This document shows, piece by piece, positions 15,454-18,175 of a DNA stretch of 64,000 nt. The notes beneath the pieces were generated by a model. That model worked only from the letters and a program-made list of their open reading frames with translations. It did not search any database and had not been told where the DNA came from. Each line of letters opens with the position of its first letter. Positions within the stretch are counted from its first letter, which is position 1. Origin of the DNA: Verrucomicrobiota bacterium (GTDB lineage Bacteria > Verrucomicrobiota > Verrucomicrobiia > Verrucomicrobiales > DEV007); the NCBI GenBank assembly GCA_963205275.1, contig CAUJIH010000027.1, positions 40,095 through 104,094 of the forward strand. Reading direction: 5' to 3'. Position numbers and translations under genes: made by a program.

Positions 15454-17085
15454 GTGCCTCCCACGGAGTACAGCAGTCCTGTGAGAACCTATGACTTTAT
15501 TGTCGTCGGCAGCGGAATCTCGGGTCTGAGCTTCGCTTTGCGAGCGGCTCAACACGGGCGCGTAGCTGTCATTACCAAACGGGATGCAGGGAGCGCCAAT
15601 ACGACTTGGGCGCAGGGTGGTATCGCGTGCGTGCAGAGCGATGATGACTCCTTCGACAAGCACGTTGCGGATACCCTAGATGCCGGAGCGGGACTCTGTC
15701 CTGAACCAATAGTCCGCCAGATCGTCAGCGAGGGACCACAGGCCATTCAGGAGCTGATCGATTGGGGGGTGCATTTCGATGGGACAGTTTCAGATACTGG
15801 AGAAGAGATGATTGAACTCGGACGCGAGGGAGGGCATACCGCCCGACGGATTCTTCATCACAAGGACACGACGGGACGTGAGATCGAGCAGAGCCTGTTG
15901 GCTCGTGTTCGCGAAGATCCGAGAATCGACCTGTTGGAGTATCACTTTGCTATCGATCTGATCACAACGGCTCGGGTGGCTCCGAATTCGCCGCTGCGTT
16001 GTGTGGGGCTATATGTGCTGGATGAAAAGGCGGATGAGGTGCTCACTCTGCGCTCAGATCGAATTCTGCTTTGTACTGGTGGCAGTGGGCGCGTCTATCT
16101 CTACACGACCAATCCCGATGTCGCGACGGGTGACGGTGTCGCGATGGCCTGGCGTGCCGGATGCGAGATTGCGAACATGGAGTTCATCCAGTTTCATCCG
16201 ACCTGTTTGTATCATCGAGAAATTAAGTCATTCCTGATCACTGAGGCGATGCGCGGGGAGGGAGCTGAGCTGGTGGATCGGGATGGAATACGGTTCATGC
16301 CGGAATATGATCCTCGCGGTTCGTTGGCGCCCCGCGATATCGTGGCTCGTGCGATTGATCATGAACTGAAACGGACGGGAGCCAGTTGCGTGTATCTGGA
16401 TATTACACATAAACCGGCAGAGTTCGTGAAGGATCGCTTTCCGTATATCTATGAGAGGTGTCTGACGGGAGGGATTGACATCACAAAAGATCGTATTCCC
16501 GTGGTGCCTGCGGCGCATTATCAGTGTGGCGGAGTGCGGACGGACGTGAACGGGGCCACTTCATTGCCCGGCTTGTGGGCGGTGGGGGAAGTCGCGTGCA
16601 CGGGCCTGCATGGAGCCAATCGACTGGCGAGCAATTCGCTGCTCGAGGGGGTGGTGGTGTCTGCCCGAGCACTTCACGACTGTCTGGAAAAGAGTCCTCG
16701 GATCGGAGAGGCGGAAGAAATTGTGCTTCCGAGGTGGGAATCTGGTGATGCTTCAGATGTGGATGAACTGGTGGTGATCTATCACAACTGGGATGAGATC
16801 CGGCATCTGATGTGGGATTACGTCTCCATCGTGCGCACAGACAAGCGACTGCATCGGGCGGCGACACGCTTGCAAAATTTACGTCAAGAGATCCAGGAGT
16901 TTTATTGGGATTTCCATGTAACTCCAGAGCTTCTGGAGCTGCGGAATCTCGTGGAAACTGCGAGTCTGATCGTGGAATCGGCGACGCGACGAAAGGAAAG
17001 TCGCGGTTTGCACTACACGCTGGATTATCCGGAGCGGGATGACGTGAATTGGCGGGTAGATACAGTACTGCGGAAGCAGGGGTAG
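15454..17085 (+). CDS. nadB: L-aspartate oxidase
   Basis: FAD-dependent oxidase converting aspartate to iminoaspartate, the first step of de novo NAD synthesis. FAD-binding GxGxxG motif IVVGSGISGLSFAL is near residue 15, followed by TTWAQGGIA, the active-site EFIQFHPT and TEAMRGEGA blocks, HYQCGGVRTD, and GLHGANRLASNSLLEG. The C-terminal helical domain of the succinate dehydrogenase/NadB family is complete. Length 543 aa is normal. The start is GTG at 15454; a second in-frame GTG nine codons on is possible. nadA and nadC are not in the window. An exact palindromic duplication follows 15 bp after the stop. Confidence 0.95.
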   Translation: MPPTEYSSPVRTYDFIVVGSGISGLSFALRAAQHGRVAVITKRDAGSANTTWAQGGIACVQSDDDSFDKHVADTLDAGAGLCPEPIVRQIVSEGPQAIQELIDWGVHFDGTVSDTGEEMIELGREGGHTARRILHHKDTTGREIEQSLLARVREDPRIDLLEYHFAIDLITTARVAPNSPLRCVGLYVLDEKADEVLTLRSDRILLCTGGSGRVYLYTTNPDVATGDGVAMAWRAGCEIANMEFIQFHPTCLYHREIKSFLITEAMRGEGAELVDRDGIRFMPEYDPRGSLAPRDIVARAIDHELKRTGASCVYLDITHKPAEFVKDRFPYIYERCLTGGIDITKDRIPVVPAAHYQCGGVRTDVNGATSLPGLWAVGEVACTGLHGANRLASNSLLEGVVVSARALHDCLEKSPRIGEAEEIVLPRWESGDASDVDELVVIYHNWDEIRHLMWDYVSIVRTDKRLHRAATRLQNLRQEIQEFYWDFHVTPELLELRNLVETASLIVESATRRKESRGLHYTLDYPERDDVNWRVDTVLRKQG

Positions 17086-17100: not shown

Positions 17101-17264
17101 GTAGCACAGACAATCGTGTCTGTGGTCTCGTATGGAAAGACTCAGACAGGATTGTCTGAGCCACATTGGCTACACTGGTGCGCGGATGTCGAAGTCAGTG
17201 TAGCACAGACAATCGTGTCTGTGGTCTCGTATGGAAAGACTCAGACAGGATTGTCTGAGCCACA
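17101..17264. repeat. Exact 65-bp direct duplication, each unit made of two palindromes
   Basis: Two identical 65-bp units at 17101-17165 and 17200-17264, separated by 34 bp of unrelated sequence. Each unit contains two perfect hairpins: CACAGACAatcgTGTCTGTG and CTCAGACAggatTGTCTGAG, 8-bp stems with 4-base loops, joined by GTCTCGTATGGAAAGA-like sequence. The core CAGACA/TGTCTG is common to both hairpins. The element lies between nadB (plus) and a minus-strand gene, so it is at a convergent gene end. The layout resembles REP/BIME-type elements moved in trans by REP-associated transposases; no such transposase is in the window. Confidence 0.92.
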
Positions 17265-17321: not shown

Positions 17322-18056
17322 TCAGCGGGTTTGGCCCACCACATTCGGGCGTTTCTCCGGAATCGGCGAGGGATTTTCGTGACTGAGCAAGCCATCCCGT
17401 CGCCAGACGGCCTGAGTGCGGAGTGATCCGTCGGGCCGGGAATATGATTGGCTCTGGATGAGTCGGTAGCCTTCGCCTTGGAGAGCGGCACCCTCTTTTG
17501 CAAAATCTGCCTCCGTTAGATCGATTCGGTGTTGCCATTCGAACTCGTGTGATCGCTCCATCTGCCCCAGCGCGATGCGATATTCCACATCGCCACGATC
17601 CCAGCGTCCTTCCACTGCTCGGATCCAATGCCCCGCGTCCCAATAGCTCACTGTATTGCCACGATTCTTTTGCAAAATGTAAGTGCGCAGGGCGAGCTGA
17701 GACATCCACGGAGTAAAATCCGCCTCTGTGGGGGGAAGGATCGCGACGGGGGGGACGGCGATCTCGGGAAGCTCTTCCGGAGAACTTATGGATCGTGTCA
17801 GATCAGATTCTGACGATTTTTCTTTGCTCGAGGACGGTGCCGACGCGTTCGCAGCAGCTTCGTTTTGCGAGGCGACGGTCACGGTCGTTGCCTCGCTCGC
17901 TACCGTCGGCTCCTGCTGCCAATAACGAAAATAGAGCAAGGCCATTCCCAGCATCGTCGCACCCATCAGCAGAGGCATGACTACGGGAGAACCCGAACTC
18001 TGCGGGGTGTGATAATAGCTATCGCGAATATAGGAAATGGGGAGTCGATCACGCAA
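17322..18056 (-). CDS. Hypothetical single-pass membrane protein
   Basis: 244 aa, not recognised. A short cytoplasmic N-terminus is followed by one membrane helix (about residues 26-46, VVMPLLMGATMLGMALLYF), then a low-complexity Ala/Ser/Thr/Glu linker with prolines (about 50-100). After that comes a folded-looking domain of about 130 aa containing FTPWMSQLALRTYIL, VSYWDAGHWIRAVEGRW and EGYRLIQSQSYSRPDG. The topology suggests a periplasmic or extracytoplasmic C-terminal domain on a flexible stalk. It begins next to an AT-rich spacer with a 13-bp inverted repeat. The function is unknown; the ORF is long enough and structured enough to be real. Confidence 0.7.
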   Translation of the reverse strand: MRDRLPISYIRDSYYHTPQSSGSPVVMPLLMGATMLGMALLYFRYWQQEPTVASEATTVTVASQNEAAANASAPSSSKEKSSESDLTRSISSPEELPEIAVPPVAILPPTEADFTPWMSQLALRTYILQKNRGNTVSYWDAGHWIRAVEGRWDRGDVEYRIALGQMERSHEFEWQHRIDLTEADFAKEGAALQGEGYRLIQSQSYSRPDGSLRTQAVWRRDGLLSHENPSPIPEKRPNVVGQTR

Positions 18057-18059
18057 ATT

Positions 18060-18102
18060 TTAAATCTAGGTAGTTACGTTATTCATAAATACCTAGATTT
18101 AA
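18060..18102. promoter_or_regulatory. 13-bp perfect inverted repeat in AT-rich spacer
   Basis: TTAAATCTAGGTA (18060-18072) and its exact reverse complement TACCTAGATTTAA (18090-18102), separated by 17 bases. The right arm is 74 bp past the stop of the upstream DUF1501 gene, and the left arm is 4 bp from the start of the hypothetical membrane protein gene (both minus strand). The stem is AT-rich and no T-run follows, so an operator or mRNA-leader structure is more likely than an intrinsic terminator. The surrounding 120 bp are much more AT-rich than the flanking genes. Confidence 0.6.
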
Positions 18103-18175
18103 TAAAATTCACAAATTGAAATCTTGAAATTTTAAAAAGTATCAATTTTGATCTTTCTTCGCTCGAAAATCGAAC

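Follow-up and report, generated by a model that had tools for sequence, protein, structure and literature searches.

A tandem pair of REPINs from a species-specific GT[AG]G-tagged REP family and its probable mobilizer, a RAYT nested in a methylase gene

The window, i.e. the complete stretch of 64,000 nucleotides analyzed here, harbors between two convergent genes a feature that is almost certainly a tandem pair of REPINs belonging to a species-specific, GT[AG]G-tagged REP family. The complete explanation, to which we assign a probability of about 0.8, is a tandem REPIN pair likely moved by a REP-associated tyrosine transposase (RAYT) which is itself nested in a methylase gene on contig C101 of the same genome. 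Taken alone, the window element, although its family is new, is a tandem REPIN of the ordinary kind.

Positions 17101-17165 and 17200-17264 were found to be exactly identical over 65 bp and to lie 34 bp apart; the spacer between them (17166..17199) is unrepeated, and identity between the units was 96% once they were extended to 74 bp. Each unit carries two hairpins, each with a perfect 8-bp stem and a 4-nt loop. Repeat comparison and folding thus agreed with the description given in the first-pass annotation, which had overlooked an asymmetry: the second palindrome is the first one inverted, and a GT[A/G]G tag is located just outside each hairpin foot. The plus-strand palindrome reads GTAG-CACAGACA-ATCG-TGTCTGTG and the minus-strand palindrome GTGG-CTCAGACA-ATCC-TGTCTGAG. 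The two REPs of each unit face inwards, head to head, with the tags outermost, and define a unit of 64 bp. REPIN copy 1 (17101..17164, plus strand) consists of REP 1a (17101..17124, plus strand; GTAG, stem CACAGACA, loop ATCG) and REP 1b (17141..17164, minus strand; GTGG, stem CTCAGACA, loop ATCC). The identical copy 2 (17200..17263, plus strand) consists of REP 2a (17200..17223, plus strand) and REP 2b (17240..17263, minus strand) with the same tags, stems, and loops. Both copies were delimited by repeat comparison and folding, and the four REPs by a tag survey, which was combined with folding for copy 1 and with repeat comparison for copy 2; REPs 1b and 2b were also recovered by a tagged-pattern search. 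The tag is present 5' of the hairpin foot in both REPs of both units.

The complete unit of 64-66 nt is predicted to fold as one long hairpin on either strand, with -33 kcal/mol (z ~ -6) for RNA and -18 (z ~ -5.8) for single-stranded DNA; such inverted doublets folding as one hairpin were found in the window units and in at least five other 64-bp loci. The window contains four CAGACA-N4-TGTCTG sites, all of them inside the tandem pair. An Rfam search with the element returned only miRNA-like chance matches, all below threshold.

The pair starts 16 bp past the stop codon (17085) of a plus-strand gene at 15454..17085, which we take from our reading of the sequence to be nadB, encoding an L-aspartate oxidase-like protein; its homologues in congeners are 73-84% identical. 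The pair ends about 60 bp short of the stop (17322) of a minus-strand ORF of 244 aa from the ORF list (17322..18056). No homologue of this ORF was found beside nadB in congeners, and no gene was common downstream of nadB among the 29 congeneric nadB loci examined. Since gene order behind nadB varies among congeners, no clean empty site can be demonstrated for the window locus. Beyond the ORF, positions 18050-18140 form an AT-rich intergenic island (GC ~0.35) with a 12-bp inverted repeat, TAAATCTAGGTA...TACCTAGATTTA.

The genome, a 4.08-Mb draft in 109 contigs, was searched for further copies. Exact CAGACA-N4-TGTCTG palindromes occurred at 45 sites, compared with about 0.24 expected by chance for a 12-base palindromic pattern in 4.08 Mb and none for a reversed control pattern; these palindromes are therefore not due to chance. 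The tagged pattern GTRGC-NNN-GACA-ATCY-TGTC yielded 50 exact sites and 61 with one mismatch genome-wide, again with none for the control, and GT[AG]G stood at the hairpin foot in 49 of 53 palindromes with at most one mismatch in the stretches examined. By contrast, 33 congeneric genomes together contained one site. Hence, the element is neither old in the genus nor unique in the genome; uniqueness was the outcome that the first-pass annotation, which had called for this search, had named as speaking against a mobile family. The copies are short, perfect, mainly extragenic stem-loops: 44 of 52 mapped copies were intergenic, 18 of them between tandem, 11 between convergent, and eight between divergent genes, with seven unplaced. 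The proposed location at convergent gene ends is thus correct for the window locus, but it does not describe the family, as only 11 of the 37 intergenic copies with two visible neighbours are in convergent gaps.

The family shows two ARRANGEMENTS: (a) 64-bp dimers, to which the window pair belongs, and (b) singlets. Dimers measuring exactly 64 bp from tag to tag are both window units, C6:5239-5302, C27:37960-38023, C32:347-410, C62:7628-7691, and C101:29505-29568; a partly decayed dimer is located on C59. These dimers align across the REPIN, similarity is mostly lost beyond it, and most share the inner spacer TCTCGTRYGGAAAGACT. The common spacer together with mostly differing flanks identifies the mobile unit as the 64-bp REPIN. 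The other dimers are 77-95% identical to the window copies, which are identical to each other, fitting the recent duplication or gene conversion suggested in the first-pass annotation. The REPIN at G000:C27:37960-38023 lies only about 2.1 kb ahead of the first base of the window.

Most of the remaining copies are singlets in a conserved outer context, with GGAAGA before and TAAGCCATTCC...GCCGACGTCCYCGTCGGC after the hairpin. In most cases, a singlet CAGACA REP is followed by a second repeat block, GGGACCGCCGACGTCCYCGTCGGCAGC...CTGGCNNNNGCCAGGAA, which also flanks a Y1 transposase gene on C56; present at G000:C56:6000-7700 and at some 30 further loci, this block has the appearance of a composite mobile element. 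At G000:C93:11849-12044, three GTAGCGTGGACAATCCTGTC REPs in one orientation and at 88-bp spacing form a head-to-tail array.

Five genes encoding Y1_Tnp proteins were found in the genome (on C101, C56, C48, C82, and C1). Judged by their sequences, the C82 gene looks like an ordinary IS200 TnpA and those on C48 and C1 look like longer relatives, while the gene on C56 is short, RAYT-like, and bordered by the other hairpin block. Among the five, the C101 gene is the only one with GT[AG]G REPs of the GTAGC-NNN-GACA-ATCY type at a distance of 500 bp or less, namely GTAGCCGAGACAATCCTGTCTCGG (two copies), GTAGCTCCGACAATCTTGTCGGAG, and GTAGACGAGACAATCCTGTCTCGT. These share tag, loop, and GACA core with the window REPs; their stems are CCGAGACA or CTCCGACA as compared to CACAGACA in the window, a difference of at most three positions. 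The C101 protein matched PF01797 with 30.2 bits (cut-off 23), contains the HVH motif and the tyrosine of the Y1/HuH signature, and has TnpArep (4er8, E = 8e-4) as its best PDB match. Thus, the TnpA_REP gene that the first-pass annotation had proposed to look for is present, and its comparison with BIME-type mobile palindromes is borne out by dispersed GT[AG]G REPs, inverted doublets, and at least one RAYT that has REPs of this design around it. The C101 gene also bears, 2 kb downstream, a 64-bp CAGACA-type REPIN, which is translated near the C-terminus. The closest RAYTs, namely L102, L103 (Opitutales), and L104 (Verrucomicrobia), are 73-74% identical to that of C101 and are flanked by REPs of the same design; L102 is accompanied by REPINs of 63-64 bp, and stems of the type CAGACA-ATCC-TGTCTG bound the L104 RAYT (74% identity). 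The REPs flanking the C101 RAYT and the REP design, REPINs, and CAGACA stems of its relatives suggest that this RAYT, or a recent ancestor, spread the window REPINs, and we consider the nested C101 RAYT their probable mobilizer. By analogy to characterized TnpA_REP proteins, the Y1/HuH enzyme would recognize the GT[AG]G tag and the hairpin foot at the ends of the REPIN while the locus is single-stranded, would excise or copy the 64-bp element, and would insert it at another place. The unit at the window locus could then have been doubled by slippage or by recombination among copies of the REPIN. We infer that the RAYT would act within, or be released from, the methylase fusion protein.

The REPIN pair could instead have been moved by another or a lost transposase, e.g. 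the RAYT-like protein of C56, while the nested RAYT would be restricted to moving its own CGAGACA/TCCGACA REPs. As a rule, a RAYT goes with a REP family of its own (PMC6006769), stem positions do differ between the window REPs and those around the C101 RAYT, and most copies in the genome are singlets adjoining the block found around the C56 gene. However, no matching GT[AG]G REPs were found within about 500 bp of the C56 gene, from which the closest CAGACA REP is separated by 2.3 kb, or near C48, C82, or C1, whereas a CAGACA REPIN lies inside the C101 gene itself and CAGACA REPs bound the L104 RAYT. We therefore regard a different mobilizer as possible, though unlikely. As most CAGACA singlets adjoin the GCCGACGTCCYCGTCGGC block, part of the family may nevertheless depend on the C56 enzyme.

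It is improbable that the hairpins are kept mainly as a bidirectional terminator or as stabilizers of the mRNA 3' ends of the two convergent genes. Such roles are known for REPs (PMC3733652), and the hairpins are stable on both strands and located between two convergent stops; yet they lack a T-run or a terminator-like site, most copies elsewhere do not lie between convergent genes, and the absence of the family from congeners argues against an old regulatory part. The window hairpins may have such a function in a secondary role.

The RAYT favored here as mobilizer is an in-frame, stop-free domain of a 1622-aa frame (G000:C101:24953-29818; L063:2954-7818). A Pfam scan identified the remainder of this frame as an Eco57I/PglX-like N6-adenine methylase with a TaqI-like specificity domain. 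The RAYT occupies the hinge that separates motif X (SFYTPR) from motif I (DPACGSG), where it is bordered by REPs as well as REPINs of the same design. L102, L103, and L104 carry a RAYT at the same position of the orthologous methylase (52-69% pairwise identity). The distance between motifs X and I was 54-96 residues in uninterrupted and 288-397 residues in interrupted methylases, with no intermediates. At this hinge, the RAYT cassette is present in 10 genomes, while about two dozen close relatives are empty; across the junction, the C101 methylase and its best empty homologue share 77% identity. On the methylase tree, genes with and without the cassette are intermingled, with eight changes of which at least six are forced by well-supported branches, and their distribution fits the tree no better than shuffled labels. 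Apparently, the cassette has entered this hinge, or has left it cleanly, on many occasions. The recurrence at one methylase site of a cassette with REPs at both ends is reminiscent of IS200/IS605 insertion sequences, which would move as a unit, but the tnpA gene of those is free-standing, whereas the RAYT lies in a host frame. Occupancy of the hinge by REPs without a RAYT was not found in seven uninterrupted homologues examined. One uninterrupted methylase, L288, has a low-complexity extension rich in Thr, Asp, and Ser at the hinge, as if other repeats land there too. An AlphaFold model of the methylase-RAYT segment was not used (pLDDT 39), the three-row alignment being too shallow.

RAYTs were also found nested in other genes. 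Using a single query, 388 genomes of the host phylum were surveyed, and 103 contained a RAYT at E <= 1e-20. The 51 matches taken further all lie in stop-free frames of at least 545 aa; together with the proteins of C101, L102-L104, and L107, 56 proteins were examined (the nested set comprises L214-L264, L102-L104, and L107). The RAYT was internal, with at least 100 aa before and at least 60 aa after it, in 51 of the 56, counts that depend on the sampled genome set, the single query, and the length threshold; in L225, L254, and L258 it was C-terminal. GT[AG]G hairpins were present on both sides in 26 of 46 scanned internal RAYTs, and 21 of the 51 internal cases lack any Met in the interval that starts 60 aa ahead of the RAYT and ends 15 aa inside it. 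Most nested RAYTs scored 45-79 bits with NCBIfam NF047646 (curated cut-off 80 bits) and L246 scored 84; host-gene context, HxH/Tyr, and flanking REPs of the nested relatives agree with an assignment as RAYT.

Hosts identified by NCBIfam and Pfam, for all but about ten long frames, include LeuRS, PriA, MetH, CarB, XseA, HypF, the CCA-adding enzyme, IspG, mevalonate-diphosphate decarboxylase, NspC, adenosine deaminase, HsdR, BREX PglX, a RarA-like ATPase, a glycosyltransferase, and B12 radical-SAM proteins, among others. In related genomes, nested RAYTs are often found at one and the same site. The split in CarB falls exactly at residues 487/488 of the E. coli protein, and PriA is interrupted between residues 121 and 182 of a solved homologue. 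In LeuRS, L223 carries about 236 additional residues at a point (365/376) where the T. thermophilus enzyme is uninterrupted. In four genomes (G310:C44, G344:C66, G307:C9, and G304:C66), which are 97-98% complete, the interrupted LeuRS is the only LeuRS found, and all four inserts come after LPIxxVV. The host flanks of L240 and L252 are 91-94% identical, compared with 51% for their RAYTs, which indicates separate occupations of one LeuRS site.

Of 101 RAYTs compared, nested as well as free, 98 retain HxH and Tyr. Nested and free RAYTs are interspersed on the RAYT tree, with 13 changes of which at least five are forced. In nested pairs with estimable dS, dN was lower than dS, with many dS values saturated; at the level of sequence comparison, selection on nested RAYTs is indicated. 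Introns were rejected as the reason for nesting, with no Rfam match to group I/II introns in six nested loci. In our judgment, the odds are about even that RAYTs of the host phylum are REP-bounded in-frame cassettes that entered the same hinges of conserved, partly essential single-copy enzymes again and again; they would be translated within the host protein, in many cases lacking their own start codon, with an intact active site, and would still be the source enzyme for REPIN families including that of the window.

Most of these genomes are draft MAGs, so that the nesting might be an artefact of assembly or gene calling. This is very improbable: one methylase is interrupted at one site and in one frame in 10 genomes and is paired with empty homologues, two interrupted genes are located in single-contig or large-contig assemblies (G386 and G103), and the split of CarB is exact. 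Furthermore, the other two frames of the cassettes contain on average 7.6 and 10.3 stops, and the host frame, being free of stops, is therefore not open through composition. The window copies are adjacent and identical, as expected for a local tandem duplication of a one-off palindrome without a mobile family, but this is virtually excluded by dispersal over 45 exact and 61 tagged sites (at most one mismatch) genome-wide.

RAYTs have been described as stable, single-copy, domesticated transposase genes next to their own REPs (PMC8049555), and "unexpectedly long" RAYTs were dropped from a reference survey as fusions or annotation errors (PMC6006769). In the present set, long RAYTs are common; they recur at exactly the same insertion sites, retain their catalytic residues, and are matched by homologues with empty sites. 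If the fusion proteins are real, they offer a concrete route by which the transposase could be retained, because imprecise loss would break a needed gene; RAYT persistence, a standing puzzle, would become testable, and it would have to be asked how LeuRS or CarB work around an internal HuH enzyme of 200 residues.

Previous work has covered REPINs, RAYTs, GTAG REPs, and short REP insertions that stay in frame (PMC3116915, PMC3733652, PMC6006769), whereas our search of the open-access literature yielded no account of a complete RAYT lying in frame inside a host gene. With the GTAG REPs and REPINs/BIMEs of E. coli and Pseudomonas and their RAYTs (PMC3116915, PMC3733652, PMC8266576), the window family shares the tag at the hairpin foot, the mostly intergenic inverted doublets folding as one long hairpin, the tandem clusters with unrepeated spacers, and a putatively cognate RAYT flanked by the same REP type; tandem REPINs with a short unrepeated spacer are the usual cluster in P. 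fluorescens SBW25 (PMC3116915, Figure S7 legend). It differs in stem and loop (NNNGACA-ATCY-TGTCNNN), in the exact 64-bp unit, in that most copies are singlets joined to another hairpin block, and in having its candidate RAYT as an in-frame part of a methylase gene; the likeness to the E. coli BIME is limited to the general organization of REP doublets. The GTAG repeats of Planctomycetes and Verrucomicrobia (R. baltica, and GTAG-20 of O. terrae), likened here at the level of the superfamily, belong to the same one, in which the GTGG variant is common; REPs inside ORFs have been reported for O. terrae, but a nested RAYT is not described there (PMC3733652). In-frame REPs and the Rickettsia palindromic elements are likewise translated within functional proteins, and in-frame palindromic repeats occur in replication and repair genes and tRNA synthetases (PMC3733652); those inserts comprise about 20-80 residues and no enzyme, whereas here a whole HuH transposase of about 200 aa is inserted together with flanking REPs. 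Inteins and homing-endonuclease genes show a similar pattern, namely an in-frame cassette at a recurrent site in conserved genes, present without relation to host-gene phylogeny. In contrast, the nested RAYTs have no Hint splicing domain (no Pfam match in L063, L102, L103, L104, and L107) and no group I/II intron (the six loci searched with Rfam), are located in hinges and linkers, and encode a Y1/HuH transposase; they are therefore not members of these classes.
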